DNA from: Thermoanaerobaculia bacterium
GTDB lineage: Bacteria; Acidobacteriota; Thermoanaerobaculia; Gp7-AA8
Assembly: GCA_017883235.1 (NCBI GenBank)
Contig: JADGNY010000039.1
Coordinates: forward strand, 1-49,897
Direction: 5' to 3'
DNA length: 49,897 nucleotides
Positions 1,233 through 40,341 of this stretch are shown piece by piece (the stretch's first letter is position 1; every line of letters begins with the position of its first letter). The notes beneath the pieces are model-generated. The model was given only the letters and a program-made list of their open reading frames with translations. It was not told the origin of the DNA and made no database searches. The position numbers were made by a program, and so were the translations under genes.

Positions 1233-2602
1233 GCGGCGGAGCTCTTGGTTTCGCCTTCCTTGACTGCAGGCGGTCCCGGATCATTCTTTTCCGCGGAGGT
1301 CAGGCCGTAGCGGGCGTAGAGCGCCGGCAGGCGCACTACATCTTCGGGCCGCAGCAGATACGTACCCGTCGACTTCGAAGGTCGAAGTCCGAGGCGGCGT
1401 CGCACGATGGAGCCGACCCAATGCGGCGTGATGCGGCGTTCGTATTCGTGGCCGTAGCGGGCGAGAAAAGCGGAGGTGATGTCCTGGATTGCGAGCCGCG
1501 CCTCGGGACCCTTCGCGACCAGTTCCCGGATGACGCCCAAGACCTGCGCCTCGGCGGATTCCGAACGTTCCTCTACAGCGTCCTCGTTCAACTTCCCGAG
1601 CAGACCGACGACACGGTCACGCGCAGACGCATCGTCGATCACCGAAACGAGAGGCCCGAAAATTTGTTGCAGCCTCGGCTCGAGATCGCGAGCGCCCGCG
1701 CGGTCGTACCGCCGCGCGTCCTTGAAGTGTCTCAGACGATAGAGGAGCAGTTGGTTGCGCAGGCTTCGGGCCTCCTCGTGGAACGAGTCGTCGAGATTCA
1801 GCGGAATCTCGCGTCGCAGCGAGCCGCCGCGCATGTCCTCGGTGACGCAGCGGCTCTCCAAGGCGCGGTCCTGGAAGAAGCCGCGGGTCGCCACGATCTT
1901 CGGCCCGAAGACGTGGTACGCCCGCGGGTCGAACTCTTTCTTCGGGGAGACTTCCGTGCGAAGGACGGGGAAGCCTCTCGCATTTCCATTGTTGAGGATC
2001 TTAACCACTTCGCTCTTTTCATCGCTCGCCCGGAAGTCTCCCTCGTCGAGGATGAGCGTCCCGCGGAAGGCGTCGAGGAGCCGGAAGAGCGGCGACACGG
2101 TACTGGCCGCTGAGGCGAAGATGGCGAAGCGGCAGAGCGAGCCTACCGCGAGGAGAAAGCGGGTCTTGCCGGTACCGTAGCCACCGCGAATACGGACATA
2201 AGGGACTTCGTGGAAGGCATCGTAGACCCAGGTGAAGAGGATGTAGTAGGTAGCGACCGTCTCAAAGTCTTCCGACATATCCACGTAGCGGTGCACGAAG
2301 TCCCGGATGCGGGAGATGAGGGCCGCCTCGTCGCCGTACTCGGTTGGTTCGGACGCGAAGAGCACCACCCCGTGCTTCACAAGGTTGTTGGTCGGTGAGT
2401 ACGGCACGAGGCGCTCCAGAGGAGAAAGAAGGACGCTCTCTTCGTAGCCCCAAGCATCCGCCGTACCGGAGACGAAGCGAGTTTTGCGCTCTACCGGGTC
2501 GTAGACCATCTCCACCAGCTCGCCGTTCGGAAGGATGGCGGAGGCGGTCGGTGTGACGGTTACCTTCTGCTCCGGCTTCTTCTCCGGTTCAGCCGGTGCC
2601 AT
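1229..2602 (-). CDS. AAA-type P-loop ATPase next to primase (replication helicase-like)
   Basis: This 457-aa protein has a Walker A motif in RGGYGTGKTRFL (about residues 139-150) and a Walker B motif TLILDEGDF near residue 185. It has no membrane segments or signal peptide. The C-terminal third (ITPHWVGSIVRRRLGLRPSK) looks like a winged-helix DNA-binding region. The overall design, an ATPase core with a C-terminal winged helix encoded directly after a primase, resembles plasmid and phage replication ATPases. I do not recognise a named family. The start at 2602 overlaps the primase stop by 14 bases and its end overlaps the TraG-like gene by 4, so the three are co-translated. The replicative helicase or loader role is inferred from position. 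Confidence 0.65.
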   Translation of the reverse strand: MAPAEPEKKPEQKVTVTPTASAILPNGELVEMVYDPVERKTRFVSGTADAWGYEESVLLSPLERLVPYSPTNNLVKHGVVLFASEPTEYGDEAALISRIRDFVHRYVDMSEDFETVATYYILFTWVYDAFHEVPYVRIRGGYGTGKTRFLLAVGSLCRFAIFASAASTVSPLFRLLDAFRGTLILDEGDFRASDEKSEVVKILNNGNARGFPVLRTEVSPKKEFDPRAYHVFGPKIVATRGFFQDRALESRCVTEDMRGGSLRREIPLNLDDSFHEEARSLRNQLLLYRLRHFKDARRYDRAGARDLEPRLQQIFGPLVSVIDDASARDRVVGLLGKLNEDAVEERSESAEAQVLGVIRELVAKGPEARLAIQDITSAFLARYGHEYERRITPHWVGSIVRRRLGLRPSKSTGTYLLRPEDVVRLPALYARYGLTSAEKNDPGPPAVKEGETKSSAA

Positions 2603-3554
2603 AGATTTCGTAGGTGAATTCGAAGCGCTCCAAGGCGTCGAGCGCCTGAGAGAACGTCATCGACTCTTTATCCATCAGGAACTGCACGACGTCGCCCTTG
2701 GCTCCGCAGCCAGAACAGGCGTAGGTGTTCGTCGCGGGATAGACGCTGAAAGAAAGCTCCCGATCGTCATGGAAGGGACAGTGCGCGACAAGCCGCTGGC
2801 CGCGCGCCTGGAGTGTGGCGTACTGCTCAACGATGTCGTGGAGCTTCACCCCTTTTCTAAGGCCTTCCGCGCGCTGCCGGATGGATTTGAGGAGCGGACG
2901 AAACTCGCGCACGGTGGGCGGCGTGTCGGAAGGGTCGTTCTCGTCCGACGAAGCGCTGGCCAACAGGATTTCGAAATCGAGTCTGGTTTTCTCCTGGAAG
3001 ACGAAGAAGTCGGTCACGTCGAGAGCGCAGGCAGGGAGCATCACGATTCTCGCGCGCGGCAGGATGCTTTGGACTTTCTTCGCCGCGATCTCGCCGACGC
3101 GATCGCGGTTGAAACAGACGTAGACGTGCTTGACCGCTTCGAAATACGGAGCCCATTCTTCAAGAAAGACGTCTGCGCCAGCCGTCGAAGTGACCGCGGT
3201 AAAGTCATTCGCTTCGAGGACGAGACGGTTGAACTCACCGTCGCAGATCACGACCCGATACGGTTTCCGGGCGAGCATTTCGGCGCCGTAGAGTTGCGCG
3301 TCGAGCTTCGGATCGGAGATCACCTCTGGAGTATCGGAGATGTCCGTAGGAGATTTCGCGTAGCGGAAGCCCAGCACTTGGCGCTTAGGGCCGAAGACGG
3401 GAATCGTGATCCGTTCGCCGTTCCAGCCGAGTAGATGGCGTTCGATGATCGTCGCCGGAATGCCTCGACCTTTGAGGTAGCTCCGGATCTCCTCCGGAAG
3501 GAAGTTGTGAAACTTCTCCGCGCGTACACGCGGCCAATTGATGATGTTTAACAT
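2589..3554 (-). CDS. Permuted DNA primase: Toprim domain followed by C-terminal CHC2 zinc finger
   Basis: This 321-aa protein carries the two hallmark parts of bacterial primases in reversed order. A catalytic-core-like N-terminus (LLGWNGERITIPVFG) leads to a Toprim domain with VVICDGEF (E107) and the acidic site FNRDRVG (residues 148-154), in which the first Asp of the usual DxD is Asn149. The CHC2 zinc finger is at the C-terminus: C259-P-F-H262 and C280-S-G-C283, with the typical GDVVQFLM continuation. In DnaG the finger comes first. The frame stays open to a GTG at 3644, but ATG 3554 begins the conserved region and is preferred. It heads the operon with the two ATPases and probably primes plasmid-like replication or transfer of the element. 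It could instead be a non-primase Toprim protein. Confidence 0.78.
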   Translation of the reverse strand: MLNIINWPRVRAEKFHNFLPEEIRSYLKGRGIPATIIERHLLGWNGERITIPVFGPKRQVLGFRYAKSPTDISDTPEVISDPKLDAQLYGAEMLARKPYRVVICDGEFNRLVLEANDFTAVTSTAGADVFLEEWAPYFEAVKHVYVCFNRDRVGEIAAKKVQSILPRARIVMLPACALDVTDFFVFQEKTRLDFEILLASASSDENDPSDTPPTVREFRPLLKSIRQRAEGLRKGVKLHDIVEQYATLQARGQRLVAHCPFHDDRELSFSVYPATNTYACSGCGAKGDVVQFLMDKESMTFSQALDALERFEFTYEIYGTG

Positions 3555-3682: not shown

Positions 3683-3910
3683 ATGCTCGACACCACTAAG
3701 ACCGCGCTTCGCGCGTTGCTTCCCGATGCCAATGAAACTGAGATCCAAGCCGCTGATGAGAGGTTTCGCCGATACTTTCAGCTCGCATTAGAGATCTCCC
3801 AAGCCGCCGACGAACACCTCTCGGGGGCAACTTTGACTCATTCGGATCAGGGAGGTAACGTGGAGCAGGGGCAGGTCGACCCCACACGAACCTTAACAAA
3901 CACCGGATGA
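3683..3910 (+). CDS. Small protein co-translated with the serine recombinase
   Basis: This 75-aa acidic, helix-rich protein (ADERFRRYFQLALEISQAAD) has no recognised domain. Its TGA overlaps the recombinase ATG as ATGA (3907-3910), so the two are translationally coupled. A small ORF in this position might be a regulatory subunit, a recombination directionality factor or simply a leader. None of these can be decided from sequence. The composition matches the neighbours and the frame is well used, which supports a real gene. Confidence 0.6.
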   Translation: MLDTTKTALRALLPDANETEIQAADERFRRYFQLALEISQAADEHLSGATLTHSDQGGNVEQGQVDPTRTLTNTG

Positions 3911-5469
3911 AGCAGCTTTTTGCTTACATCCGTGTCTCTGACCCGAAGCAAAAGACCGGAGTATCCCTCATCGAGCAACGGGCGATCATCGAACGTTACG
4001 CCGAGCGAATCGGCGCGGTCATCGTCGCTTGGTTCGAGGAGACCCGCACCGCCGCGAAAGCTGGCAGGCCAGTCTTCACGAAGATGCTCAGCCTCCTCAG
4101 GTCCGGCAAGGCCGAGGGCGTCATCATCCACAAGCTCGACCGCGGCACCAGGAACTACCGCGACTGGGCTGCGATCGACGAACTCCTTGATGCCGGCGTC
4201 GGCATCTATGTCGCGAACGACAACCTCGACCTCCGCACGCGCGGCGGCCGGCTCGCCGCCGACTTGCAGGTGGCGGTGGCAGTCGACTACATCAGGAACC
4301 TCCGCGAGGAGGCGCTGAAGGGAATCCATGGGCGCCTGAAGCAGGGCATCCTCCCGAATGCCGCCTCGGTCGGCTACCTGGACCGCGGCGCAGGCAATCC
4401 CAAGGAGATCGACTCCAAGAAGGGGCCGCTCGTGCGGCGTCTCTTCGACCTTTACGCCACCGGCGGCTATACCCTGCGCGAACTTGTCGAAGAGGGCAAG
4501 AAGATCGGCCTTCGGAATCGCAACGGCCACGCGTTCTGCCTCCAGCAGATCGACGATGTGCTCAGAAATCCCTTCTACATGGGCGTCATCCGTTCAAGGC
4601 GTTACGGGCTCTTTCCCGGCAGGCACCAACCTCTCGTGAGCGCCGCGCTCTTCGAGAGGGTGCACTCGGTTCTTTCCGGCCGATACGTCCGGCGCACGAA
4701 GCGGTTCTCGTTCCTCTTCAGGCGGTTCATCCGCTGCGAGACCTGCGGCCGGTCGCTATCCGGTTCCGAACGCAAGGGCCGCGTCTATTACCGGTGCCCT
4801 ACGATCGCCTGCCCCACCACTTCGTTGCGAGAAGATGCCATCGAAGAGGTTGTCAGGGAGGAACTCCGGAAGGTCACGCTCGGCAAAGAGGAGGCGGCTC
4901 TCCTCGATGCGGAACTCTCTGCAACACTTGCGGACGAGACGTCCCTCAGGGCTGCGAAACGCGCTGCGCTTCAGGAAACGCTCGCCACCACAAATGCCCG
5001 GCTCGCCCGACTGACGGATCTTCTCCTTGATAGCAAGATTGACGCTGCCGCCCATGACGAAAAACGCGCTGCGCTCATCATGGAACGCGAGGGGCTCACC
5101 CAGCAGATCGCCGAGATTGAGGCAGGAAACATCAACCTCCGCGCCGGCATCGCGAAAATGTTCGAACTGCTGGCATCCGCGGAAACGCTGTACGAATCGG
5201 CCGACCCTGAGAAAAAACGTCAATTGCTCGAAATCGTGACTTCGAACTGCACCGCACATGGGAAATCGCTAAGTTTTTCAATGCGGGAACCGTTTGCGAC
5301 GTTCGCAAAGCGTGATTCTGTCAAGAACGGTGGACAGTTCTATGACACGGTTCGGACTTTCTTGGCCGAGGCCCTGATTTCCTGGGCTAAGAACTGTCCC
5401 CGTGACCTAGCTGATGCTCTTCAGTCTATCAAGCTGGAGGGAGTCGTAAAGCTCCGGCACGTCGCCTAA
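3907..5469 (+). CDS. Large serine recombinase (site-specific integrase/resolvase)
   Basis: This 520-aa recombinase cuts and rejoins DNA at attachment sites through a 5' phosphoserine. The N-terminal resolvase domain has AYIRVSDPKQ with nucleophile Ser11 and the HKLDRGTRN active-site arginine region. The recombinase domain follows (LFDLYATGGYTLRELVEEG; IDDVLRNPFYMGVI). Next comes a zinc ribbon with CETCG and YYRCP..ACP cysteines near residues 278-299, then a long charged coiled coil (about 320-425). Length and domain order match phage- and ICE-type large serine recombinases. It is the second gene of a two-gene operon. It may mobilise this element or an inner cargo segment. The tRNA scar at 45335-45379 would more usually be the target of a tyrosine integrase, so the two may not be linked. 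Confidence 0.92.
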   Translation: MKQLFAYIRVSDPKQKTGVSLIEQRAIIERYAERIGAVIVAWFEETRTAAKAGRPVFTKMLSLLRSGKAEGVIIHKLDRGTRNYRDWAAIDELLDAGVGIYVANDNLDLRTRGGRLAADLQVAVAVDYIRNLREEALKGIHGRLKQGILPNAASVGYLDRGAGNPKEIDSKKGPLVRRLFDLYATGGYTLRELVEEGKKIGLRNRNGHAFCLQQIDDVLRNPFYMGVIRSRRYGLFPGRHQPLVSAALFERVHSVLSGRYVRRTKRFSFLFRRFIRCETCGRSLSGSERKGRVYYRCPTIACPTTSLREDAIEEVVREELRKVTLGKEEAALLDAELSATLADETSLRAAKRAALQETLATTNARLARLTDLLLDSKIDAAAHDEKRAALIMEREGLTQQIAEIEAGNINLRAGIAKMFELLASAETLYESADPEKKRQLLEIVTSNCTAHGKSLSFSMREPFATFAKRDSVKNGGQFYDTVRTFLAEALISWAKNCPRDLADALQSIKLEGVVKLRHVA

Positions 5470-6103: not shown

Positions 6104-6319
6104 TTAAGCCAGCTCTTGGATTCTAGCCGCCAGCTTCTCGGCATCTCGCTGAAGAATCGCCCGCGCGCACGGCAAGCAATAACGAGCCCAACCTCGTCCC
6201 TTCTTGATATTCAAACGCTTCGCACCCTTCGGAATTCGGTGTGATTTGTTGCCCTGACAGTTATGGGAGTTCCCGGCAGTATCCAAGAAGGTTGTAATAA
6301 CCGTGGTTTTAACGCCCAT
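6104..6319 (-). CDS. Small Cys/His zinc-binding-like protein overlapping the helicase gene
   Basis: This basic 71-aa protein has a Cys-x5-His pair (C21, H27) and a Cys-x2-Cys pair (C48, C51, in YCLPCARAIL). The spacing suggests a treble-clef or PARP-finger-like zinc site that binds nucleic acid. Only the part from ATG 6319 is conserved-looking. The longer frame upstream is a shadow of the helicase gene. The start overlaps the helicase 3' end by 11 bases, so the two are probably co-translated. I know of similar short zinc-site proteins near accessory genes but no proven function. Confidence 0.6.
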   Translation of the reverse strand: MGVKTTVITTFLDTAGNSHNCQGNKSHRIPKGAKRLNIKKGRGWARYCLPCARAILQRDAEKLAARIQELA

Positions 6320-8120
6320 CGAAGAGTTCCTTGGACGCCTCCGCGACGATCTTGGCGAAGCCGTTTTCGATGGTGTCGAGTTGCGGTCGCGTAAGCTCAT
6401 CCCACTTGCCGCGCTTCCCTCCAACAAGGGCGCGAGCATGTCGGTTCAGCGCGGCGATCGCAACGACGAGGTTCGTCTGGTTGAGATGTTTCTTGTCGAG
6501 TTCATGCCCTTCCGGGTTCGCACTATTCTGCCTCAGCAACCGAAGAGCTTCGGTCCTGATCATCATCTGAACGGACTGACGCTTCGCCTGTCGCTGTCGG
6601 AGTTTTGTCGTCGGCACGGGCTCTAACTCTTCAAGTGCATCGCGAACCTCCTCCCCGGTGTAGCCCTTTTCTCTTAGAAGCCGAAGGGCGGCCAGCGCTT
6701 CTGAATCGTCCGCGATAAGCGGGATCTCTTCGATCTGGACCCCGGCCTGACTCCTCACATCCACCGACGTTTCATAGCGATCGGCGGACACTACTGGCTC
6801 GATCTCAAGTTCATCCGCTGAGGCGAAATCAAGATCCTCCATCGGCAGAAGCTGATCAAAGTATTCCTGATCCGCTTCGCTGTAGCTCTGAAAATCTTTC
6901 CACCGGCGCGCGATGTTTGCGCCGGCGTGAAATACGACGACGCCTTGATTCACGAGATCGCCGGGAGCATTCTGCTTCACGACCCGCATGATCCTGCCGA
7001 CGAACTGAATGAAGGGTGACAGGTTGCTAAAGATACTGAACACCGCGGCGACGGCGAGGTAGGGATGATCGAATCCTTCCGAGAGCTTGCGGACCTGCAC
7101 AATCACATCGAGCTCGTGATTGTCGAGCTTCTGTAGCACGCGCTTGTTTGCCTGTGCGTTCTCACGAGAGTGAACGTAATCAGCTCGTTGCCCTTTGCTC
7201 CTATAAGCTTCGACGATCTGGCGGCAGTGTTCGTAGTTGAGGGCCGACGCGATGACCTTAAGGCGTTGCTCACCGGAGGCGGCGCGTAGTTTCTGAAGCT
7301 CGCGGATCGAGGCGTCGACGATCGTGTTGAGCGTCGCGGTCGAGGTTACGATGCTCCGTCGGAAGTCAGCGTCCGTCTCGCCGAGTTGACGGACTTCGTC
7401 CAATGTAACGTCGATCTCGGCACCATCCTCTCGCCGTACATAGCGTAGAGTCCGGGGATTCAGCACGACCGCTTTCAGGCGCTTCACGTAACCCTCTTGG
7501 ATCGCGCGCGCGACTGGATAGGAATAGATGATTTGACCAGCCATCAACTGACCGTCCGCCCTTTGCGGTGTTGCGCTGAAGCTCACGATCTTGGCCGCGG
7601 GAAACTTCGCGCGTAGGACGTCCCAGCTATTCGCGACGTTGTGATGCCCTTCATCGAAGAGGATCAAGTCAAAATAGTCATCCGACAAACCGCTCAGCCA
7701 CTTGTTCTCAGTCCCTTGCAACTGGTGGATATTAGTGACGACGACGTGAGCCTCATCGAGATCGCCGCGATTGCTGCTGGTTCCGCGAATCTCCGCCGGC
7801 TCTGGATAGGGACCGCTAGCGAGGGCGCCTGACTTGCGATAGAACATCTCGGGATTAGTCGGATCGAAATCTTTCTGGAGCTGTTCGGCGATCGGAACGC
7901 CAGGTGCCACCACGAGGGTACGAGTCGATTCGAAGGCGAAAGGAGCGAGGGCGATGCAGCCCGACTTCCCGCAGCCGACCGGCAAAACGACGCCAACCTC
8001 GCGAGGTGCAGTGCCATCCTTCGCGTAGGCTGCCAATTCAGCGTATGCCTCTCGTTGCGGAGTTCGAAGACCAGGGTTGTCTTGAATACTGAGTTGTCGA
8101 TTCTTGAATGGGTTAGACAT
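6309..8120 (-). CDS. Superfamily 2 DEAD/DEAH helicase (type III restriction-like)
   Basis: This 603-aa protein has SF2 helicase motifs in order: Walker A PVGCGKS, motif Ia TLVVAPGVP, motif II LILFDEGHHN (DEGH box), motif III FSATPQR, and the C-terminal helicase half with VRKLSEGFDHPYL and QFVGRIMR. The C-terminal 170 residues are helical, with no nuclease motif that I can identify. ATG 8120 (MSNPFKNRQL) is chosen. The open frame to 8324 has no coding appearance, and ATG 8147 is a second option. It leads the operon with the zinc protein and the GGCT-like gene. Helicases of this type are usual parts of restriction and other defence systems, but the nuclease partner is missing here. That makes a defence role plausible but unproven. 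Confidence 0.85.
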   Translation of the reverse strand: MSNPFKNRQLSIQDNPGLRTPQREAYAELAAYAKDGTAPREVGVVLPVGCGKSGCIALAPFAFESTRTLVVAPGVPIAEQLQKDFDPTNPEMFYRKSGALASGPYPEPAEIRGTSSNRGDLDEAHVVVTNIHQLQGTENKWLSGLSDDYFDLILFDEGHHNVANSWDVLRAKFPAAKIVSFSATPQRADGQLMAGQIIYSYPVARAIQEGYVKRLKAVVLNPRTLRYVRREDGAEIDVTLDEVRQLGETDADFRRSIVTSTATLNTIVDASIRELQKLRAASGEQRLKVIASALNYEHCRQIVEAYRSKGQRADYVHSRENAQANKRVLQKLDNHELDVIVQVRKLSEGFDHPYLAVAAVFSIFSNLSPFIQFVGRIMRVVKQNAPGDLVNQGVVVFHAGANIARRWKDFQSYSEADQEYFDQLLPMEDLDFASADELEIEPVVSADRYETSVDVRSQAGVQIEEIPLIADDSEALAALRLLREKGYTGEEVRDALEELEPVPTTKLRQRQAKRQSVQMMIRTEALRLLRQNSANPEGHELDKKHLNQTNLVVAIAALNRHARALVGGKRGKWDELTRPQLDTIENGFAKIVAEASKELFDGR

Positions 8121-8329
8121 ATTCCAGGAAAATTTTAGCACTCTCATCGATTGAGTGCCAGCAAGAGCGCACGCTAGCCGTGCGGATAACTTGATTGCCC
8201 TTCCCACGGCTACCTTGTGTTGATTCTGCAGTGGCTCGCCGCCAGTCCGTCTGCGTCCACCTTTGACGCGGGTCTCCTGCGGTTCTAAGATGAAGGCGAA
8301 GTTTCCTCCTCCAAACACTCCCACCTTTC

Positions 8330-9400: not shown

Positions 9401-11935
9401 TCAATCGCCGGGCGCAGCGAGCCTAACGTCGAGCTCCGATCGGTAGCTCGGCAGGTTTCCATCACGTAGGTATTGGAAGTAGGCGCCGAAGTTCTTCGGC
9501 GTCACGAAGTTGAAGCAGTAACGCGTCGCTTCGCCACGAGCCGCGAGTTGCTGGTTCAACCGCTCGAAATGCGCGGTCCCATACTCTGCCTTCTTACGGT
9601 TCTCCTCGGAGGGGTCGCGCAACTCCTCGTCGCCTTTGACTTCGACAACTGAAGTGAGATGGCCGATTCGGATGAAGAAATCCGGACTGAACTTTCCTCG
9701 TTTCGGATGTTCACCCTTCTTCCATGCGTAATCGATCTCGTAGAAGCGAATCGGCGTCGACTTGATCCAAGCATCGATCGAGTTGATGTTCGCATCAGAC
9801 AACAGATGCGCAATGAAGCGCCTCTCGGTTTCGGCATCAGCAATCACGGCGTTGACGGGCGATTTCAAGTCGCGTGGATTTGCAATTTCGATCCTGCGAA
9901 AGAGCGCCCCAGGGTCGATCACCTCGTCGAAGAACTCCTGTTGCTCATCGCGGAGTGACGCGCGCGTTTCCCGCGTGAAAAAGAGCGTCTTGTCCCGACG
10001 GAGCTCGGCGGCGCTCACGCTTTCTGCCGGTCGATCGAGCGTCGTGATGCCGTACAAATCGGTAGCAACTGCCTTGTAGCGGACTGTTTCAGATGACTTC
10101 CTGCGCAGCGTTCCGAGGGACTGAAGAAACTTTTGCTTCGCGTCCTCCGTTGCAACATTCATACGCACTCGCTTCAACGACTTCTCCACGATCCTTTGAA
10201 GGACATCCACGGGGAACTTCGTCGTATACCTGCCTGGCGGCCATGCACTAGGATCTTCTGCGTCCTCGGCCTCTACGAGACGAGCGAACATTTCGGCCGC
10301 GACCTCCTCGACGGTGTACGTTTTATGACGAATCTTGGTCTGCCATTTGAATCGCTCACCCGAGTCGGCGCGCTCGAACACTGTCTCCACGGCCTCTGTT
10401 GCAAGTCCGGCGGGGAGATCGACGTAGCCTTTTGCAAACAGCTCGTATCCCCTTGCAGGCGATTTCTTAGCGAAGACCGCGTCGAGCCGGTAATGGATGT
10501 GATCAAGTGAGAAATGCAGCGGGTGACCGGCGATCACATCAGTGGTGATCCGCTTCTCGACCTCTAACATCTCATCGACAAGGCGACGGATGCGGCCGGC
10601 CCAGGCATCATGATTGAAAACAGTGACCGAGGGTTGCGCGCCGGTTTTCCAACTGTCTGGAACGCGCAATCCGCGGCCAAGAACCTGGGAAATTAGGAGC
10701 TTGCTGTTGAAGGCTCGTTCCTCGTGCGGAACAATCTGAAAGACGCGCTTTACGTCCCAGCCTTCGTTAAGCATCGACACGGAAACAATCCACTCGACTT
10801 TGCTCGTCGGCGCATCGACAGCGTCGAGCTTTTGAAGGTCCGCTGCGTCGCTATGAATTACCAGCACGCGCGCGGCTGCCTCGTCAGCTGACAGATCCGC
10901 GTATTCGATTAAGAATGCGCGAAGCTCGTCAGCAACGTCATCGCAGCGCGAGATCGACGGCGTCACGACGATGGTAAGCGGTAAGAGATGATGAGATTTG
11001 ACCCTCTTCTTAATGTCTTCGTGTCGCGCGAGAATTAGTTGCCATTTCTCGTCATGGCCATTCGTGGGTGGACCGTCCGTGACGTAGTCGACTTTCTTCA
11101 CATACCGTTGCTCCATCGCTTCTCTTAACGAGTAACGGTAGATGACATCAGCAAAATAGTCGTCGCCCACATAGCACGTGCCGGACACCCCAACGACATA
11201 GCGGAAACCATACGCCGGGTCGATGAGGAACTCTTTCCACTTCTTGGCCCGACCGGCTGACTCGTTGGCCACGTGGTGCGCCTCGTCGTTCAGGACGGCC
11301 GTACGTTCGCCCCGGCCGCGTAAGCTGTCACGAACCGACGACCCTACGTGCTCCAGAACGGCATGGTAGTTTTCGACGCAAATCGCGCCGTCGGTGATGG
11401 TCTCTCTAGCATTAATGATGGTCGGCGTCGTTATCTTTGCCTCCGCAGGCAACAGGTCGCGAAGCTCACGTTTGCCAGCGAGCTGCCGGAATTTCGTCAG
11501 GAGACCTGACTCAATTGTCGTTGACGGGCAAAGAACGAGTACTCGATCCACAGCTCCTTCGGCAAGGAGGATTGCAGCGATCCCGTACAGCACGTAACTC
11601 TTTCCAGTTCCCGTAGCGAGATCGATTGAGGCGGAAAGTTGCGCTGGTAGCTGGAGGTGACGCTCCATGTTCTGCCACGAGCCGTAGCGCTCCTGGAGGA
11701 CGTCGCTCTCATCAAAGTTTTCTTTGGCGAGATCCCGCAACGAGCCATACTCCCCGCTGAGGAGATATCGGAGCGAAGTGTGAATCGCGGCTTTCTGGTA
11801 TTCGCGATCGTCGCACAGCGCGTCGAGGAAAGGGTCGTAGCGCGACTCATCCCACACCGAACGGCTGACGCTCGGAGAAACCTTTAGAACAAGTTCCTCG
11901 TTGCGGAATTGTTTACTATCTGCACTACGCGGCAT
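9401..11935 (-). CDS. res: Type III-like restriction subunit Res (SF2 helicase with PD-(D/E)XK nuclease)
   Basis: This 844-aa protein is the probable cleavage subunit of the adjacent Mod. It is an ATP-dependent translocase or switch coupled to a nuclease. Walker A is DLATGTGKS (105-113) and motif II is VLNDEAHH near residue 210. Motif III-like GVSGTCY and the second RecA half (VSMLNEGWDV; QVLGRGLR) follow. The C-terminus has the nuclease core KFSPDFFIRIG then VVEVKGDEE, which is D...ExK. The start at 11935 overlaps the mod stop by 11 bases. The frame continues open to 12505 antisense to mod, but that part is a shadow. Compared with EcoP1 Res the layout is complete. Confidence 0.88.
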   Translation of the reverse strand: MPRSADSKQFRNEELVLKVSPSVSRSVWDESRYDPFLDALCDDREYQKAAIHTSLRYLLSGEYGSLRDLAKENFDESDVLQERYGSWQNMERHLQLPAQLSASIDLATGTGKSYVLYGIAAILLAEGAVDRVLVLCPSTTIESGLLTKFRQLAGKRELRDLLPAEAKITTPTIINARETITDGAICVENYHAVLEHVGSSVRDSLRGRGERTAVLNDEAHHVANESAGRAKKWKEFLIDPAYGFRYVVGVSGTCYVGDDYFADVIYRYSLREAMEQRYVKKVDYVTDGPPTNGHDEKWQLILARHEDIKKRVKSHHLLPLTIVVTPSISRCDDVADELRAFLIEYADLSADEAAARVLVIHSDAADLQKLDAVDAPTSKVEWIVSVSMLNEGWDVKRVFQIVPHEERAFNSKLLISQVLGRGLRVPDSWKTGAQPSVTVFNHDAWAGRIRRLVDEMLEVEKRITTDVIAGHPLHFSLDHIHYRLDAVFAKKSPARGYELFAKGYVDLPAGLATEAVETVFERADSGERFKWQTKIRHKTYTVEEVAAEMFARLVEAEDAEDPSAWPPGRYTTKFPVDVLQRIVEKSLKRVRMNVATEDAKQKFLQSLGTLRRKSSETVRYKAVATDLYGITTLDRPAESVSAAELRRDKTLFFTRETRASLRDEQQEFFDEVIDPGALFRRIEIANPRDLKSPVNAVIADAETERRFIAHLLSDANINSIDAWIKSTPIRFYEIDYAWKKGEHPKRGKFSPDFFIRIGHLTSVVEVKGDEELRDPSEENRKKAEYGTAHFERLNQQLAARGEATRYCFNFVTPKNFGAYFQYLRDGNLPSYRSELDVRLAAPGD

Positions 11936-13811
11936 GTTGACGACGATTACGCACGGTCCGCGCAGGTCCGCCCGACAGCAGACCGAATTTGTTTCTTGGA
12001 ATGATCTCGCGGGATTCGTTGCCGTAAATGTCGATGAAGACCGCCATGACCTGTTTTCCGATCGAATCAACAGGTATCGGCACCTCCCACGAAGCACGCT
12101 GCAGATCGTTCGCGAGATAGAACTTATCCAGGTCGAAGACCTCGCCGTCGTAGTCGAGGTCAAGCATGAGCATGGCGAATGTTTCGAGCCCGCCGGCAAC
12201 GTCGACGCCGTGCGTTCGAGTCGTGCTGGCGAACGATCGAATGCGCAGCACAGCTTCTCGGCCCGTTCCACCGGTCGTTTTCCGCGCGCTGGCGAGCCAC
12301 GCGACGCGCGGCGGCCGTATAAAATCGAAGCCGACGGCGTCCACGGTCGCGTTGATCGCACCCTCGTCGCGAGGCTGCTCAAGAGCTGTGAATGACCGCG
12401 TGTGTAGTTCGTTGATGATCGAGTACGGAATCCTGAGCGCGTAATAGCGGACGCCGTCAAAGTCGAGGTAGTCCTGTTGGAAGTCAAAACTGCCGCGCGG
12501 CGCAATCATGAAGAACCGCTTCCCGATTTGGTTGCCGATCGCCACGTGAAGGTCGCGTACAGTCTCCTCATCGATGCGCTTACCTGCCAGCTCGTCATGA
12601 TTGAAGACAAGCACGCTGCTGCCCTTGAGCTTTCCATCCAATTGCAGGCCAGCTATTTGGTGCGGTTCGTCCTTGCAGCCGAAGAGCTGGAGTGCGAAGA
12701 ACCGCCAGTCTTGCCACGGTAATTTGCGCAGGGAGGCAAAGTCGTAGAGACCGGCGTTGTAGAGCGTAAAGGCGGCGGGCCCTACTTGACGGCGCATTCC
12801 GTCGAGCGCGCCGCTGAGGTGAAGAAGGCGCTTTTGAATCGTGTAGATCGAAAGCTTTCCGCAGTCGACCGCAATCCATCGACGACTTAGCTTCTCGGCG
12901 GCGATGCACGTAGTTCCCGAGCCCGCAAAAGCATCGAGGACAAGGTCACCTTCGTTCGAAGACGCTCGAATAATCCTTTCAAGGAGAAGCTCAGGCTTCT
13001 GAGTTGGATACCCGGTGCGCTCCTTCGAGACATTGATCACTGCCGGGATCCTCCAATAGTCCTTCATGATCACATCTGCGTAGTACCGGCCTTGTTCGTC
13101 CTTTTGTTCGTTAAAGAATGGCTTGTCGTAGTACTCGCGTTCTTTTTGAACATTGAACAGCTTCTGTCGTGCGTTCTTCGCGTAGAATAGGATTGTGTCG
13201 TGTTTCCTGCTGAAACGGTCGCGGGAGGCACCGCCAGTCGCATAACACCATGCGATTTCGTTCATGAAGTTTTGCTCACCGAACACTTCATCCATAAGGA
13301 CCTTCACGTAGTGCGCCTTTTTGCCGTCGAGGTGAACGTAGATGCTCCCATCCTCCGACAAAAGCTCTCTCAGCATGACGAGGCGGTGACGCAAGAACTC
13401 GAGAAAAGCTGCGCCAGTGATGCGGTCCTGGTACGCCTGTTCATCGTGACTGCCCCGGAACTCCTTCTTGGTCGCAAACGGCGGATCGATGTATACGAGA
13501 CGCACGCCAGACGTGCCGTCGGCGTTACGCAACTCTCCGGCCTCCTTCATTTGGAGCAGCGTCTTCATCGCCTGAAGGTTATCGCCGAAAATCAACTTGT
13601 TGTGCCACCCCGTCCCTAGACCAAATGTGCTGACAGGTTGTAGAGGGACGGACATGATGTCAGCAAGGATTTCTTCCTCGCGCTCCTTTCCGTCGTAAAC
13701 CAACTCAGCCTCGCGCTTTTCAGGCGGAAAAAGAAAGCGCGCCCATTCGGCGGGCAGGCTTTCGCCGTGGCGGAGTGCGTCGATGACACGCTCCAGAAAT
13801 TTCTTATCCAT
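11925..13811 (-). CDS. mod: Type III-like DNA methyltransferase Mod
   Basis: This 628-aa enzyme would methylate adenine (or N4-cytosine) using S-adenosylmethionine and provide recognition for the R-M pair. Catalytic motif IV is DPPF (109-112, in LVYIDPPFATK) and the SAM-binding motif I is DAFAGSGTT (293-301). The catalytic motif precedes the SAM motif, as in beta-class Mod enzymes. The variable recognition region lies between and after them. ATG 13811 gives the normal N-terminus (MDKKFLERVIDALRHG). The frame to 13898 adds nothing recognisable. It is the first gene of a two-gene operon with res. No frameshift or phase-variable simple repeat is visible. Confidence 0.9.
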   Translation of the reverse strand: MDKKFLERVIDALRHGESLPAEWARFLFPPEKREAELVYDGKEREEEILADIMSVPLQPVSTFGLGTGWHNKLIFGDNLQAMKTLLQMKEAGELRNADGTSGVRLVYIDPPFATKKEFRGSHDEQAYQDRITGAAFLEFLRHRLVMLRELLSEDGSIYVHLDGKKAHYVKVLMDEVFGEQNFMNEIAWCYATGGASRDRFSRKHDTILFYAKNARQKLFNVQKEREYYDKPFFNEQKDEQGRYYADVIMKDYWRIPAVINVSKERTGYPTQKPELLLERIIRASSNEGDLVLDAFAGSGTTCIAAEKLSRRWIAVDCGKLSIYTIQKRLLHLSGALDGMRRQVGPAAFTLYNAGLYDFASLRKLPWQDWRFFALQLFGCKDEPHQIAGLQLDGKLKGSSVLVFNHDELAGKRIDEETVRDLHVAIGNQIGKRFFMIAPRGSFDFQQDYLDFDGVRYYALRIPYSIINELHTRSFTALEQPRDEGAINATVDAVGFDFIRPPRVAWLASARKTTGGTGREAVLRIRSFASTTRTHGVDVAGGLETFAMLMLDLDYDGEVFDLDKFYLANDLQRASWEVPIPVDSIGKQVMAVFIDIYGNESREIIPRNKFGLLSGGPARTVRNRRQHAA

Positions 13812-14438
13812 TAGTCGTTGATGGGAGTGTCGCGGCTTTGGTGTTGGTTCAATTGAACCGCGTATTGACCCATTTGGAAAGGCCCCGCCATTATCCACAG
13901 GCTACGGACGAATAATCGCTGGCCACGGTGTACAGCGTCCGCGTTGTGCGCCGGAGTTGGCTCGTTCCGAACCGGAGGGCTGGATGCCGCCTACGAGTAG
14001 GGCACGGTAGGTAATTTTGCCACGCCCCGGCAAAGGAGCTGGACCGGCGTTTACTCACCGGCGAGCCGGTCGGCCCGCCCTTTGTAGAGCCAACGTCGGG
14101 TCCGCATGCCTGAAATGAATGAGCCGCTTCGGCTAGAAGCGCCTTAGTGGGGCATGTTCTAACTGTTGGCGTTCAAGCACTTAACGGTCCGACCCTATTC
14201 ATACGCCTGCACACTGGAATACACCCGGAGTTCCGCCAGACCCATCTTGCGTTCGACAAGAGAGGTACGCCCGACGCTTGCGACGTCTTCTAAACTGTGA
14301 GAAAACGCTAGCCGGGCGAGGCCGCCACCGACTTTGGGTCTCGCTCCTGCCCAGCCGTATTGCGGTTTCACGATCCGTACCCTTCGCCATATCGCGAGCA
14401 GAATCGCTCTGATTGACCCCTTCGAAGGGTTGATTCCC
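13812..14438. other. Gene-poor stretch of about 630 bases with small inverted repeats
   Basis: I found no coding region that looks real on either strand here. It must contain the mod promoter at its left end. Short inverted repeats occur, for example ACCGGC/GCCGGT at 14057-14070 and a 12-base palindrome at 14418-14429. The segment could be a boundary between two insertions. Confidence 0.5.
14418..14429. repeat. 12-base palindrome CCCTTCGAAGGG
   Basis: This perfect palindrome lies 9 bases beyond the lipoprotein stop, within a longer imperfect dyad (TTGACCCCTTCGAAGGGTTGA). No T-run follows. It may be a weak transcript end or a protein site. Confidence 0.45.
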
Positions 14439-15340: not shown

Positions 15341-15994
15341 ATGGGCAAAAGCGTGAAGATGGCTCCCCGCAACGAGAAAACAACCAAAATGCGCCTCATC
15401 GAACCCTCTGCGAGCCGTCAGGTCGCCTACCTCGTGAAGTCGGAGGTAGAGCGGTTCTTCGACGTGATTCCAGCAACGAACGCGCGCGATCGCCTGCTCT
15501 TCGATGTCATCTATCGCTACGGCCTGCGTCGGAAGGAAGCCGCGGCCATTCGGCGTGAGCACCTGAGAGACGGCCGCATCTGGATCACGCGCGAGAAGGG
15601 CGGGATTTCCGGGGAGTACCGGATCCATCCCGCGACGCGTCGGCTACTCTGGACGTATCTCGCATCACTCGGCGAGGATGAGCGCCCGTACTTGTTCATC
15701 AGCCGGCAGAGCGGAAACCAGCCGATTTCACCCTCTACGATCTATGGACTCTTCCGGCGCTATGCCGGCGCAGCAGACCTGCCCGTGGACCGCCGTCACC
15801 CGCACGTTCTTCGGCACTCGATCGCTGTCCACCTCATGAACGCGGGGTGGGACGCGGCCGACGTCCAGGACTGGCTTGGCCACCGCGATATCGCGTCGAC
15901 GATGGTTTACGCGGCGGTCACGAACCGGCGCCGGGAGCAAAAGTACGAGGAGGCGCTTCTCTCCGACGAGATCGCTGCAAATAATGCGAGCTGA
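15341..15994 (+). CDS. Minimal tyrosine recombinase (XerC/D-like catalytic domain)
   Basis: This 217-aa protein contains all expected catalytic residues of tyrosine recombinases: Arg in YGLRRKEAAAI, Lys in ITREKGG, His-x-x-Arg in HVLRHS, the second His in LGHRDI and Tyr in STMVYAAV. What is short is the N-terminus. Only about 35 residues precede the catalytic domain, so the usual core-binding domain is absent. It may be a stand-alone element-encoded Xer-like enzyme or a truncated integrase. Start codons at 15341, 15359 and 15389 are all possible and none has a clear ribosome site. It lies divergent from the lipoprotein gene and probably resolves or mobilises DNA. Confidence 0.82.
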   Translation: MGKSVKMAPRNEKTTKMRLIEPSASRQVAYLVKSEVERFFDVIPATNARDRLLFDVIYRYGLRRKEAAAIRREHLRDGRIWITREKGGISGEYRIHPATRRLLWTYLASLGEDERPYLFISRQSGNQPISPSTIYGLFRRYAGAADLPVDRRHPHVLRHSIAVHLMNAGWDAADVQDWLGHRDIASTMVYAAVTNRRREQKYEEALLSDEIAANNAS

Positions 15995-21476: not shown

Positions 21477-23528
21477 TCACTGCACCCCAAGCGCCTTGAA
21501 CACCGCGTCCGTCGGGTCTGCGTAGAAGCTCGTCTGGAACTTCGCGAACAGCTCTCCCGGCACAGTTGGGATCGCTCCGACGCTCGCCATCGGCAGGAGT
21601 AGACGTTTCGCACCGGCGTCGAACGCAACCTGCAGCGCCTCGGCGAGGTTCTCGACCGGCACGATGTTGCCGCCGAGGCTCATCGTCCCCAGGACGACCA
21701 TCTGCTGCTGCACCGACTTGCCGAGGATGCCAGAACAGAGGGCGACGAAGGACGCAAGTGTCATCGACGTCGCCGCTCCCGTGTTGTGCAGCTCGACGAA
21801 GTGGAGGTGGTAGTCGTGATCCATCGGTTTGGCTGAGGCACTGATACGGTTCGTATTCGCCCGGAAGTAGTCGAAGCCGACCTTAACGCCTTCCTTCGCG
21901 GCGGAGCTCGAGCCGAGGCCCGAAGTCTTCAGTAATCCAGTGCCCGGGGTCAGCTGAGTCTCCAACCGGTAGAGTCCGAGGTGACCTCCGCTTCCCGTCG
22001 CAACGGTGTGGACCACGCCGGGATTCAGCGGGCTGTCGGGGATCAGCGAGCCTCCGCCCTGCTCTGGCAGAGTCGCAAACTTTTCCTCCATCGTGTCCTG
22101 ATCGATGTAGGAGAAGTGAACGTCGTAGAACTCCATCCCGCCGATCTTCTTGAGTTGCTCCTTGACTCGGCGACGCGCTTCGAGCGCGTACTCCAGGCAG
22201 CGGCGCACCGCCTCCTTGTCGTACTTTTCGTTCGGGTAAAGCAGCTTCAGGAGTCCGGACACCGTGTGCTTCACCGCGATCGTGTCCCGCTGGTTCAGAT
22301 CGCGGCCGAGCTTGAAGTACTTGTTGATCGCGTCACCGAAGGTTCGCTTCCGCATCTCACGCAGGAACTCGGCGAGGTAGTCGGTGATGAGGCCGTACCG
22401 GCTAGTGAAGAACTCCGGCCGCATCTTTGGAATCTCCCAACCGGGAATGTACGCATGGAACCGGTCGAAGAACGCCGAGTCGATCATCGCCTCGGGGAAC
22501 GGTGAGAGCAGATGGCTGGTCTTCACCAGCGTATCGACAGATGTGATGTTGCCGATGAAAACCATCGACGCGTACGCACTCGTCTGGTCGCGTCCGCGCG
22601 CGAAGGAACCTGACGCCATGTAGTCCTTCATGATCTGCACGCCGTCTTTGTCCTTGAAGCTGATCCCGGCGACCTCGTCGAAGGCAACGACGTCCCACAA
22701 CCCTACGAGCCCGACCGTCCGCCGCGCCATGTTGTAAAAGAGGTTCGCGACGGTAGTCTGCCCGCCGGAGATCAAGATGCTGTTCGGACTGATCTCCTTG
22801 TAGATGTGACTCTTGCCTGTGCTCTTCGGCCCCAGCTCGCAGACGTTGTAGTTGTTCTCAGCGAGGGGAACCATCCGGCAGAGGATGTGCCACTTTGTCC
22901 GCTGGTCGAATTGATCCGGTTCATACCCGCACGATCGCAGCAGCACATCGATCCACTGCTCCTCGGTGAAGTGCTCACGAGCCGCGAACAGCTCCTCCAT
23001 GTCCATGTTCGGCATCTGGATCGGCTTGACGTCTTCGATGAGAAACGGCGAGCCCTTCTGCCCTTCCTCGTAGAAGTAGCGCATCTGCACGATCGCCCAG
23101 ATCCCGCCGGCGAGGAGCTTCTCGTACTTCTTCACGAATGACGTCGAGATCTCCACACCCTTCGTCCCGAGGTTCGACAGCCACGCCTCGTAGACATCCC
23201 GTTTCTCGTTTAGCGTGACGGTGACCTTGTCGATCACCTTCAGCCCGCCACGTTCCCGGATGATCGACTTGATCTTCTCTGCCTCGTCGGTGCGGACGTA
23301 GTTCTCGGCCAGGATCTTCTTGACCGTTTTCATCCCCTCTTCGATGACGGCTGGATCATTCGAGGCGCAATAGCTCCCGAGGAGGTACTCCAGTACGTAG
23401 ACGGGGACGTTGGCCCCCTCCTTCAGCAGCTTGGTCAGATCCTTCCGCACGACCTTGCCGGCGAAGTGCTGGTTGAGCAGATCGTCGATCCCGCTCTCGA
23501 TGGGGTTCAGGTCAGAAATCGAAGTCAT
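21477..23528 (-). CDS. brxL: BREX type 1 Lon-like AAA+ protein BrxL
   Basis: This 683-aa protein is the ATP-dependent DNA-associated effector of type 1 BREX. The N-terminal region is as in BrxL (SGIDDLLNQHFAGKVVRKDL). Walker A is ELGPKSTGKSH near residue 235 and Walker B DVVAFDEVAGI lies about 60 residues on. The C-terminal 150 residues align with the Lon protease fold (LTLASF-like helix, VVLGTMSLGGNIVPVENLAEAL). There the Ser position is kept (GAATSM) but the Lys of the Lon dyad appears to be Ala (ENLAEA in place of GGLKEK). The first ATG is 23528, although TTG 23534 is also open. It overlaps pglZ by 17 bases. Confidence 0.95.
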   Translation of the reverse strand: MTSISDLNPIESGIDDLLNQHFAGKVVRKDLTKLLKEGANVPVYVLEYLLGSYCASNDPAVIEEGMKTVKKILAENYVRTDEAEKIKSIIRERGGLKVIDKVTVTLNEKRDVYEAWLSNLGTKGVEISTSFVKKYEKLLAGGIWAIVQMRYFYEEGQKGSPFLIEDVKPIQMPNMDMEELFAAREHFTEEQWIDVLLRSCGYEPDQFDQRTKWHILCRMVPLAENNYNVCELGPKSTGKSHIYKEISPNSILISGGQTTVANLFYNMARRTVGLVGLWDVVAFDEVAGISFKDKDGVQIMKDYMASGSFARGRDQTSAYASMVFIGNITSVDTLVKTSHLLSPFPEAMIDSAFFDRFHAYIPGWEIPKMRPEFFTSRYGLITDYLAEFLREMRKRTFGDAINKYFKLGRDLNQRDTIAVKHTVSGLLKLLYPNEKYDKEAVRRCLEYALEARRRVKEQLKKIGGMEFYDVHFSYIDQDTMEEKFATLPEQGGGSLIPDSPLNPGVVHTVATGSGGHLGLYRLETQLTPGTGLLKTSGLGSSSAAKEGVKVGFDYFRANTNRISASAKPMDHDYHLHFVELHNTGAATSMTLASFVALCSGILGKSVQQQMVVLGTMSLGGNIVPVENLAEALQVAFDAGAKRLLLPMASVGAIPTVPGELFAKFQTSFYADPTDAVFKALGVQ

Positions 23529-26130
23529 CGGCAATCGCCCTATCGATGATCACATCCACACTCTGTTGCTCGATGCCTGTATCGGCATCGCGAAGCACCA
23601 GTTTGTACGAAGCCTTCTTGTCGTATTCGCGGTCCTGAAGAGTGAGCATGACCCACTTCTGCCGCTCGTCCATCTTCTCAGACGTACTGTCGAACGTCAC
23701 CGTCTCTGATGACGATACCGCCTCGTCGCCGAGGAAGATCGCGATTTTCAGCTTTGCCGGCTTCGCACGATCGCTCACCGCTTCCGTCTGGATCAGGTTG
23801 AAGCGGTGCGTCGGCGTGGTGATCCGGTGGCGGCCTCCGAGAACCTGGACACCGACATTCCGGGTGCGGGTCTTCTCGCGCGTCTTCTTTTCCTTCAAAT
23901 GGCGGACGGTGATCACCGGAACGACGATCTCCTGCAACATCGCGCCGCCGTGCAGGAAGCGCGAACCACCAGTGAAATGGAAACGATTCGTGCCCTTCGG
24001 AATCCAGAACTCCATCCCACCAGCGGCACCGGCCGTGATCTCAGTTCGTCCGTGCCATGCCTGGTCGCCACCATCGGGAAGACCATGGCCGAGGAGGTAA
24101 CGCTTCTTCGGTTTCACGGTGCCGGGGGGATGATCGCCGAGCTTGCTCTTGTCCGTCTCATTCGGCGGAGTCTCGGTGAAAAGGAACCCGTGATCGGCGG
24201 TGACGACGACATAGTTGCCGTTGAGACTGTTCACGACGTAAGTGACGATCTCCACGAGATCAGTCACCGCCTTCGCTGCCGCATCGAACGTATCGGATTC
24301 GGTAGGCGCCTTGTCGCCGCGAGCGTCGATCTCGTCGTGATAGATGTAGACCACGCTCCGATCGGCGATGAGTTGTCGCCCCTCTTCCTTCTTCATGGCC
24401 AACAGCTCATCGGCTTTGATCGCCATTCCCTTCACGCCGGCGAGAACCCTACTTCGCTGATCGACGCCTGCCGTCCCCTGACCATCGACGACCACGTCGC
24501 CGTTCGGCTTGTACTCGAGCGTCCGATGAGGCAGGAGGCTGGCCATGCCGAGGGCGGTGTACGACGGGAGGACGCCGAGCATCGAGGAGAGCTCGGCCTC
24601 GAAACGATACGTGCCATTCAAGGCCGCGGTAACTTCGTGTGCGACCTCATACCGAAGTGCATCGCTGATGATGACGAACGCTCGGCGGTTCTCTCCCTCG
24701 GCAATCCACGGCTTCACCCGCCGATCGAAGAATCCGTACTGGTTCTGTATCCCGTCGATCGTCCAGTTTGACAGGAGCCGACCGCTGACAAACCGTCCCC
24801 ACGCCTGCGAGAGGTTCACCAGGTACCAGTTGCAATAGGCCGCCTCGATGTCCTCGCGGAGTGGCTTGAGGAGATCACTGGTTTGCGCACCCGCCACATC
24901 TGCAGACCAGCAGAAGCGACGGTAGAGTTGATCGAATCGAAAGAGATCGCTCTCGTACGCTCGATACATCGCCGTTGCGTCAGCGAACGCAAAGCCATCG
25001 CGGTAGGTGTTGCGAAGCGAGAAAAAATCGGCGGCCGCGGTGATCGCGTCGTAGACGGCGGAACGGGCCTTCCGCAACGACTCGGGGATTAACGATGATC
25101 CGATCCAATGGCCCGCCTGGCGCTGACTCGCGATCGAGCGGATTGCCTCAGCATCCACCGTATCAGCGGTGCTCCTCACTCGCTCCAGCAGCCCGCGGGC
25201 GATACTCTTTTCGACCTCCGCGAAGGTCATTACGTTGCGGAGCTGCTCGAAGCCACTCGCTTCAAGGATCGCCGGAAGCTGCAACAGCGTCGCGACCTCC
25301 GACGCCAGCGCGTTGTAACTCGATCCCTTGCTGCTGCTGTCACGCCACTGCCCGAGACAGACCATGGCGTTGGCGGCACCAGAACGGGGCAGAACGAGGT
25401 TCTGGAGCGACGCAGGCCCATCGTCAGGGAGCTGGCTAACAAGGTCCGACACAAGCAGGCGGACCAGCAAGTTGCGCAGTGTGGGCGCTTCCTCGGAATA
25501 GCCGAACTGCGCCTGCACCATCGACCAGAATGGTGTATCGAGCTCAAACCGTTCGATCAATTCCCAGGCCGGCGGCGCCACCTGCAGATCCATCTCTTCG
25601 GCTTCCGCGAGCGACTGGAAGAGCGTCGTGATGATATTGAAGATGTGGGGCTGTTCCGCTCGGGTGACGACGGCGAGCATCTTCCGATCGAGATCCAGCT
25701 CGGAGTCTTCGGGGGCGACGAGCTGCTTGAGCCTGCGAACGCGATCCTTGTTGTCGAAGAACTTCCGGCGAAGCGCGATGTGGGAGCGAAGATGTTGCTT
25801 ACGAAGCCCCAGCTCGTCGAGCAGAATCGAAGCACGGTCCGCGCGAAAGGGGCGGCTGTAGAGCCGGATGTCGAGCAACCAGTCGTTCTCGAATGGCGGC
25901 TCCTCGGCGGGCGAATAAAGGAGGTAGCGACCCGCGGGATCGTCGCGCTCCAGGCGGATCTTTGTTTCCAGCGGGGCGGCCTCGTCAAGGCGGACGATCG
26001 AAACGCTTTCGAGCGAAAGCTCGGAGAGTGTCTCACCGAACTCGCGCTCCGGATCATTCCAGAAGACAACCCTGACATCAGGCTCGCTGAAGATCCGACG
26101 GAGCTCCGCGTCGATCTGCCCGACATCCAT
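23512..26130 (-). CDS. pglZ: BREX type 1 alkaline phosphatase-fold protein PglZ
   Basis: This 872-aa protein is the signature component of BREX systems. Its alkaline-phosphatase-superfamily core shows AFVIISDALRYEVAHEV and VVVTADHGFLFTETPP. The N-terminal half is helical, as in PglZ type A. The substrate in BREX is not settled, although PglZ is essential for defence in studied systems. A GTG (26133) overlaps the pglX TGA, and an ATG three bases on (26130) shares its last base as TGATG. Either may be used, and ATG is listed here. It is positioned between pglX and brxL exactly as in canonical type 1 loci. Confidence 0.95.
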   Translation of the reverse strand: MDVGQIDAELRRIFSEPDVRVVFWNDPEREFGETLSELSLESVSIVRLDEAAPLETKIRLERDDPAGRYLLYSPAEEPPFENDWLLDIRLYSRPFRADRASILLDELGLRKQHLRSHIALRRKFFDNKDRVRRLKQLVAPEDSELDLDRKMLAVVTRAEQPHIFNIITTLFQSLAEAEEMDLQVAPPAWELIERFELDTPFWSMVQAQFGYSEEAPTLRNLLVRLLVSDLVSQLPDDGPASLQNLVLPRSGAANAMVCLGQWRDSSSKGSSYNALASEVATLLQLPAILEASGFEQLRNVMTFAEVEKSIARGLLERVRSTADTVDAEAIRSIASQRQAGHWIGSSLIPESLRKARSAVYDAITAAADFFSLRNTYRDGFAFADATAMYRAYESDLFRFDQLYRRFCWSADVAGAQTSDLLKPLREDIEAAYCNWYLVNLSQAWGRFVSGRLLSNWTIDGIQNQYGFFDRRVKPWIAEGENRRAFVIISDALRYEVAHEVTAALNGTYRFEAELSSMLGVLPSYTALGMASLLPHRTLEYKPNGDVVVDGQGTAGVDQRSRVLAGVKGMAIKADELLAMKKEEGRQLIADRSVVYIYHDEIDARGDKAPTESDTFDAAAKAVTDLVEIVTYVVNSLNGNYVVVTADHGFLFTETPPNETDKSKLGDHPPGTVKPKKRYLLGHGLPDGGDQAWHGRTEITAGAAGGMEFWIPKGTNRFHFTGGSRFLHGGAMLQEIVVPVITVRHLKEKKTREKTRTRNVGVQVLGGRHRITTPTHRFNLIQTEAVSDRAKPAKLKIAIFLGDEAVSSSETVTFDSTSEKMDERQKWVMLTLQDREYDKKASYKLVLRDADTGIEQQSVDVIIDRAIADDFDF

Positions 26131-29690: not shown

Positions 29691-29694
29691 CGGC

Positions 29695-33270: not shown

Positions 33271-33287
33271 GAAAAAGGGCCTCGCAG

Positions 33288-34531: not shown

Positions 34532-34665
34532 ATCCCAGGGCGAGTCTATCGCCACGGGTGCCCAGAACATCCATTCCTGTCGTTTGCCACGGCGCGGGCG
34601 ATTCTGGCTGTCGACGCTGAACCCTCGGGACAGAACAGGTGGGCTGTCTCATGCCGCAAATCACA

Positions 34666-36198: not shown

Positions 36199-36417
36199 GT
36201 CAGTCGTGAAACACCACGCCAGTTCGTTTCACGACGCTTGCTCGTTCTGAAAGCAGACTGCAGCACGGTCCCGCGGGTTTGGCGGGCGCGGTTCCGTTTC
36301 CTCGTGCCGGGCCGCTCGGCGAGGAGCGAAGAGCGGGGCGGCAACGAACGTTCGCGCGCCGGGCATCCCCGACGGGACCGTGTGCAGCTCGAGCGTTGGA
36401 GGTATGCGAGCATTTCG

Positions 36418-36723: not shown

Positions 36724-36926
36724 GTGAGTGGATGGTGTTGATGAGTGATGCACAGCAGCTTGCCTCGGGTGCAACGGTAAGAAATGCGTCAGCCTCCTTT
36801 CGCTCAAGACGATGTTTGGGTTGAAGGACGCGCGGGCTGCTTGCCGGTGCGTCGGAGAAGTTCCGAAGGTGTCGGCCGATCGGATCGTCGAACCTTCAGA
36901 AGCGTGATGTAAACGAATCGCGAGCA

Positions 36927-38896: not shown

Positions 38897-38899
38897 GAC

Positions 38900-39322: not shown

Positions 39323-39329
39323 CGGAGTG

Positions 39330-40331: not shown

Positions 40332-40341
40332 GGTTCGTCTC

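Follow-up and report, generated by a model that had tools for sequence, protein, structure and literature searches.

The window, by which we mean the whole 49,897-nucleotide stretch of Thermoanaerobaculia DNA analyzed here, comes from a contig that starts inside a module of three overlapping minus-strand genes. The first of these (2589-3554) codes for a DnaG-type primase of 321 amino acids with its two domains in reversed order, as recognized from the list of open reading frames, profile searches, an AlphaFold2 model and structure comparison. Its stop is overlapped by 14 nt by the start of a gene for a 457-residue ATPase (1229-2602), a putative replicative helicase with the Walker A motif GGYGTGKT and the Walker B motif LILDEGD, and the stop of this second gene is overlapped by 4 nt (ATGA) by a third (45-1232), coding for a 395-residue HerA/TrwB/coupling-protein-like ATPase (PF10412, E = 9e-10; phrog_5156, E = 1.8e-40). 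On the other side of the primase gene, and on the plus strand, is a gene for a large serine recombinase (3907-5469) with matches to PF00239, PF07508 and PF13408 (Resolvase, Recombinase and zinc ribbon). A search for iterons or repeats resembling an origin in the interval separating the recombinase gene from the primase gene found none.

A preliminary description of this DNA placed the Toprim domain of the primase before its CHC2 zinc finger, the opposite of DnaG, and the profiles, the AlphaFold2 model and the homologues all confirm that order. The zinc-binding domain is C-terminal (residues 220-314; 2613-2897, minus strand); it matches the Pfam profile PF01807 at residues 229-309 with an E value of 4.7e-23, well over the cut-off, and all four zinc ligands are retained. 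These ligands (C259, H262, C280 and C283), the FNRDRVG motif at residues 148-154 and the asparagine N149 are all where they had been reported. The RNA-polymerase domain (RPD), an abbreviated N-lobe plus Toprim, occupies residues 1-204 (2943-3554, minus strand). Its match to Toprim_3 (PF13362) is weak (residues 101-183, E = 1.1e-4, 23.0 bits against a cut-off of 27.2), and the phrog_47 DNA primase profile matches the whole protein with an E value of 1.2e-23, the better of its two stretches covering residues 20-182. The NCBIfam equivalog TIGR01391 (dnaG) also matches in two separate stretches, and with its order reversed and no C-terminal helicase-binding domain the protein scores 99.5 bits, below the cut-off of 283.6. 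The homologues share the reversed order, with neither an N-terminal finger nor a mis-joined gene among the findings, and the Toprim match, weak as it is to the Pfam profile, is not without significance.

The model, built with six homologues as input, has a mean pLDDT of 86. Residues 1-204 align to DnaG RPDs with Z scores of 18-23, including those of Aquifex (2au3, residues 97-352, Z 22.9) and E. coli (1dde, residues 115-370, Z 19.3), and residues 220-314 align to the DnaG zinc domain 1d0q (residues 2-95) with Z 13.2 and an rmsd of 2.0 Å. Because both domains are recovered by profile matches and by structural alignment, the reversal is not a chance arrangement, and the gene encodes a primase-type protein with reversed domain order. 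Of the features that mark DnaG-type primases it has the RPD, with N-lobe and Toprim fold, and the CHC2 domain, but the catalytic glutamate and DxD metal ligands, retained in the other reversed-order members, are not intact in it (D105, N109, N149).

Distribution and origin of the reversed order

In searches of 149 genomes from the class and 396 sampled across the phylum, the reversed order was found in five genomes besides that of the window, together with one IMG/VR contig, and the family is therefore sparse in the phylum. Four of the genomes carry full-length relatives with the same order: G001 (53% identity; L026, 14278-15252), G003 (50%; L028, 13158-14126), G033 (approximately 42%) and G355 (43%), the last from a different class of the same phylum. 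The fifth, G010, has a frameshifted copy next to a shortened ATPase gene, and it was for these reasons rejected as a natural two-gene version. A further genome, G011, contains only the first ~110 primase residues, which continue in frame into a Replic_Relax protein (L031, 7153-8268), reflecting either a deletion or an assembly join. The viral member, L066, is approximately 32% identical to the window primase; its zinc finger (gene at 1974-2849) has lost the histidine (CIFK in place of CPFH), and the gene is followed by one for an unrelated 440-residue P-loop ATPase, which is only 18% identical to that of the window and was therefore rejected as a homologue and dropped from the alignment.

Among named plasmids and phages no record reaches 80% coverage of the window primase as a query, patterns derived from close relatives found only ordinary DnaG-like matches in named bacterial genomes, and no earlier description of a reversed-order Toprim-CHC2 primase was found in the open-access literature. 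The window genome is a draft in 246 contigs, and faulty assembly or gene calling might be suspected; however, the order recurs with colinear matches in the five other genomes and the viral contig, and its bearers form a single clade, so that the chance of an artefact is negligible.

Reversed order appeared at first to be common among viruses, as tblastn spans covering residues 12-305 were obtained for many viral contigs, but inspection of the loci rejected this, and L157, L186, L187 and L205 were each found to have the standard order. At the 117 related viral loci, L066 is the only reversed case; finger and core are encoded by separate genes at 65, with the finger gene upstream, 31 have the standard order, and no finger was detected at 20. 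The separate CHC2 gene overlaps the start of a Toprim primase gene of ~220 codons in this common phage arrangement (L075-L144 from IMG/VR). Given these separate genes, finger and core can evidently do without fusion.

The seven reversed-order members form one branch (support 98/88) in a maximum-likelihood tree built from 47 catalytic domains, and by this tree the reversed form has a single origin in one ancestor. The sister of the clade is L068 (IMGVR_UViG_3300037484_000304), a phage-type protein whose single chain combines CHC2, Toprim and MCM domains (fork 88/85; 32.5% identity). The deeper fork joining the whole group with phrog_47-type primases is weak (83/60), and chromosomal DnaG proteins lie far from the reversed-order clade. 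For the five bacterial members, mean normalized alignment scores of the catalytic domain are likewise higher with the phage set (0.17-0.25) than with DnaG (0.08-0.11), whereas their fingers score 0.35-0.40 with DnaG and 0.14-0.18 with the phage set. The finger of L068 is itself DnaG-like, with a normalized score of 0.30, and a tree of zinc fingers, built to discriminate between chimera and permutation, gave no resolution in its branching. Since the catalytic core is nearest to phage primases and the finger nearest to chromosomal DnaG, the protein may be a fusion in reverse of two sources, a phage-type core and a DnaG-type finger, rather than a circular permutation. The initial designation 'permuted primase' thus captures the reversal, but permutation is perhaps the wrong word for a protein with parts of such different affinity.

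Active-site substitutions in the window copy

To place the catalytic residues we used an alignment of 125 relatives, comprising six reversed-order proteins, 50 viral proteins of standard order or without a finger, 43 viral proteins of the split type and 26 chromosomal DnaG proteins. The Toprim catalytic glutamate had been assigned to E107, but this residue aligns with the tyrosine of the DnaG 'EGYMD' motif, and the catalytic column is that of residue 105, which is aspartate in the window copy (D105; 3240-3242, minus strand) and glutamate in 124 of the 125 relatives. The replacement of the first aspartate of the DxD motif by asparagine (N149; 3108-3110, minus strand), where 123 of the 125 have aspartate and two have gaps, was correctly noted; it is not isolated, however, and three further changes found only in the window copy had been overlooked. 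These are D105, N109 (3228-3230, minus strand), at a Toprim column that is aspartate in 124 of 125 relatives, and E77 (3324-3326, minus strand), at a column that is lysine in all six of the other reversed-order proteins and in most of the relatives. The assignment of residue 77 is less certain than those of 105, 109 and 149: the HMMER alignment places it one motif away from the lysine of DnaG PKYL, and the 126-sequence multiple alignment favors the lysine column.

When only columns without variation among the five other reversed-order proteins are counted, the window copy is changed at four of the seven catalytic ones and at four of the remaining 56 (Fisher p = 0.0035); the catalytic set was drawn up with the first substitutions already known, and the p value is therefore indicative. 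There is also a three-residue deletion before DVTDFF, and the terminal branch of the window primase in the catalytic-domain tree (0.53) is longer than those of its nearest relatives (0.25-0.30). The window copy is, on this alignment, probably inactive as a primase, and the other reversed-order homologues look active. With three metal-site acids and a conserved lysine all changed, mutating Asn149 alone would be uninformative. The window genome has no second reversed-order copy and, apart from the host DnaG encoded on contig C190, no further CHC2 protein.

These changes could mean simply that the window copy is decaying, its catalysis lost as dispensable and the gene bound to vanish. The altered acids and lysine, the deletion and the long branch are all as expected of such a gene, and the frameshifted G010 member beside its curtailed ATPase gene provides an example from within the family. 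The reading frame nevertheless remains open, the zinc ligands and the fold are kept, the gene still overlaps that of the ATPase as the latter does its own neighbor, and the changes are clustered in the active site and not spread along the protein. Simple decay is thus a strong competitor, although we judge its probability to fall a little short of even.

Partner genes and the surrounding element

The ATPase encoded at 1229-2602 is 52-72% identical across five loci, and the core residues of its Walker A and B motifs are invariant in the five homologues. Searches of Pfam, PHROGs, NCBIfam and the PDB assigned it to no family or structure by sequence, and its AlphaFold2 model (pLDDT 49) was set aside. 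The best evidence for its role comes from a 17.6 kb Haladaptatus plasmid, where residues 445-637 of an 849-residue protein (L147, 2376-4925) are related to it; the N-terminal part of the same protein is an AEP primase with an NrS-1-type helix-bundle domain. This fusion to an unrelated primase suggests that the ATPase supplies the helicase function of a primase-helicase pair, and together with the Walker motifs and the gene order it makes the protein a putative helicase.

A serine recombinase gene adjoins the primase gene divergently in the window and at all four comparable loci (G001, G003, G033 and G355), and the set of recombinase, primase and ATPase is kept in the window genome (G000) and in these four, although their recombinases share just 27-46% identity with the window enzyme. 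The coupling-protein-like ATPase, 67-70% identical in two related elements, is found at three of the five compared loci (G000, G001 and G003). The preliminary description had proposed that the primase and two P-loop ATPases form an operon serving as the replication module of an element family; operon and element family both hold up, but only the 1229-2602 ATPase is a constant companion of the primase. We infer that the primase and this ATPase form the replication module of an element that integrates at specific sites.

A probable second core block lies at 35368-42017 on the minus strand and consists of a gene for a Replic_Relax protein (35368-36198; PF13814, E = 1.7e-5) and six further genes; it is identified by synteny, its gene order matching that of the G001 element (L027, 3181-9609). 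The six consecutive genes (36418-42017) are without a Pfam, NCBIfam or PHROG match, and the product of one is 65% identical over 550 residues to its counterpart in G001. A tyrosine-recombinase-like protein of 217 residues, resembling XerA/C (15341-15994), is 73% identical to one encoded near the related G001 element (L026, 2824-3474).

The coupling-like ATPase raises the alternative that the primase acts at transfer, priming the complementary strand of incoming single-stranded DNA in the recipient, in the manner of TraC of RP4 and Sog of R64. Priming of transferred strands is known for Toprim primases from conjugative elements (PMC5512222). TraC and Sog resemble the window primase as Toprim primases of elements with transfer functions. 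A TrwB/TraD-like ATPase gene downstream in the same operon at three loci would suit this role, as would a Replic_Relax block conserved in one related element. However, G033 and G355 have the recombinase, primase and ATPase genes without a coupling ATPase gene nearby, and no relaxase or mating-pair genes were recognized in the window, so that a role in transfer seems unlikely.

Between the two core blocks is a complete type I BREX system (21477-34570, minus strand; brxL, pglZ, pglX, brxC, brxB, brxA), and the window also encodes a type III-like restriction pair (9401-13898), formed by a ResIII helicase with an endonuclease domain and an N6/N4 methylase, as well as a separate ResIII/DEAD helicase (6309-8324). 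With such cargo the module itself might be thought to act in defence or in copy-number control, as has been described for the primase-polymerase of ICETh2 of Thermus (Ppol), which restricts the acquisition of foreign DNA and is dispensable for replication of its element (PMC7693054). The primase clade, however, lies near phage replication primases and not near known defence proteins, PADLOC matches arise only through the common zinc finger, and no BREX was seen in the sequence examined around related primase loci. We consider a defence or control function quite improbable.

Proposed role of the module

We favor with some confidence, short of strong, the view that the gene is the primase half of a primase-helicase module in a serine-recombinase element, and that the window copy probably no longer primes. 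Either the recombinase would excise the element or a single strand would be transferred through the coupling-protein system, after which the 1229-2602 ATPase would act as a ring helicase and unwind the element DNA. The zinc finger would bind the exposed template, potentially serving any adjacent core through a flexible link, and the Toprim core would synthesize short primers. In the window element, where the metal-binding residues are mostly lost, priming would instead fall to the host DnaG, and the reversed-order protein would be kept as a template-binding or helicase-binding subunit, or else represent an early stage of decay. Primase activity, helicase activity, replication of the element and use of host DnaG are all what we infer from the genes and their arrangement.

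Two features of this scheme have precedents. According to later accounts of Corn et al. 2005 (PMC6163395, PMC5429622), the DnaG zinc domain can work in trans on a neighboring subunit, which makes a C-terminal finger mechanistically workable. Loss of catalysis in one member is plausible by analogy, since SaPI primases contribute to replication and are not essential (PMC7581432), and loss of the ICETh2 primase leaves replication of the element intact, whereas the helicase seems to matter (PMC7693054). A more elaborate version, in which the lineage joined a phage-type core to a DnaG-type finger in reverse and paired it with a helicase used elsewhere by an AEP primase, the window primase now being a dead but retained helicase subunit, is offered tentatively as a whole and is on balance doubtful.

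In the usual descriptions of DnaG-type primases the zinc domain comes first. Bacterial DnaG (TIGR01391) has both domains of the window primase, an RPD with Toprim fold and a CHC2 zinc domain, but with the latter at the N-terminus and not the C-terminus; the window primase, only 321 residues long, also has an abbreviated N-lobe and no C-terminal helicase-binding domain. Its closest catalytic-domain relatives, the phage CHC2-Toprim-MCM primase-helicases (phrog_47; nearest L068), combine all parts in one protein of ~990 residues in the order CHC2, Toprim, MCM, whereas the window primase has the reverse order, and its partner ATPase is encoded by a separate, unrelated-looking gene. A functional parallel is provided by CCPol-MP/Cch2 of SCCmec and the Rep/primase of SaPI, which likewise set a primase beside an ATPase or helicase in an integrative element, with a large serine recombinase in the case of SCC (PMC7581432). 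The likeness is in how these systems work, as the SCC primase is an A-family polymerase complex and the SaPI primase an AEP, unlike the DnaG-type enzyme of the window. The Ppol-Hel pair of ICETh2 similarly has a primase gene followed by a helicase-like gene in an integrative element, but differs in that its Ppol belongs to the AEP primase-polymerases and its integrase to the tyrosine recombinases.

A family with the finger last offers a direct test of how much domain order and tethering matter to primase function, an idea that also suits the viral loci where finger and core are encoded apart (65 of 117). That the ATPase is paired with a DnaG-type primase here, and is fused elsewhere to one of archaeal type, points to primases having been swapped on a single helicase. 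Finally, the apparent loss of the active site in one member of the family would be a natural test of a non-catalytic role for a primase.
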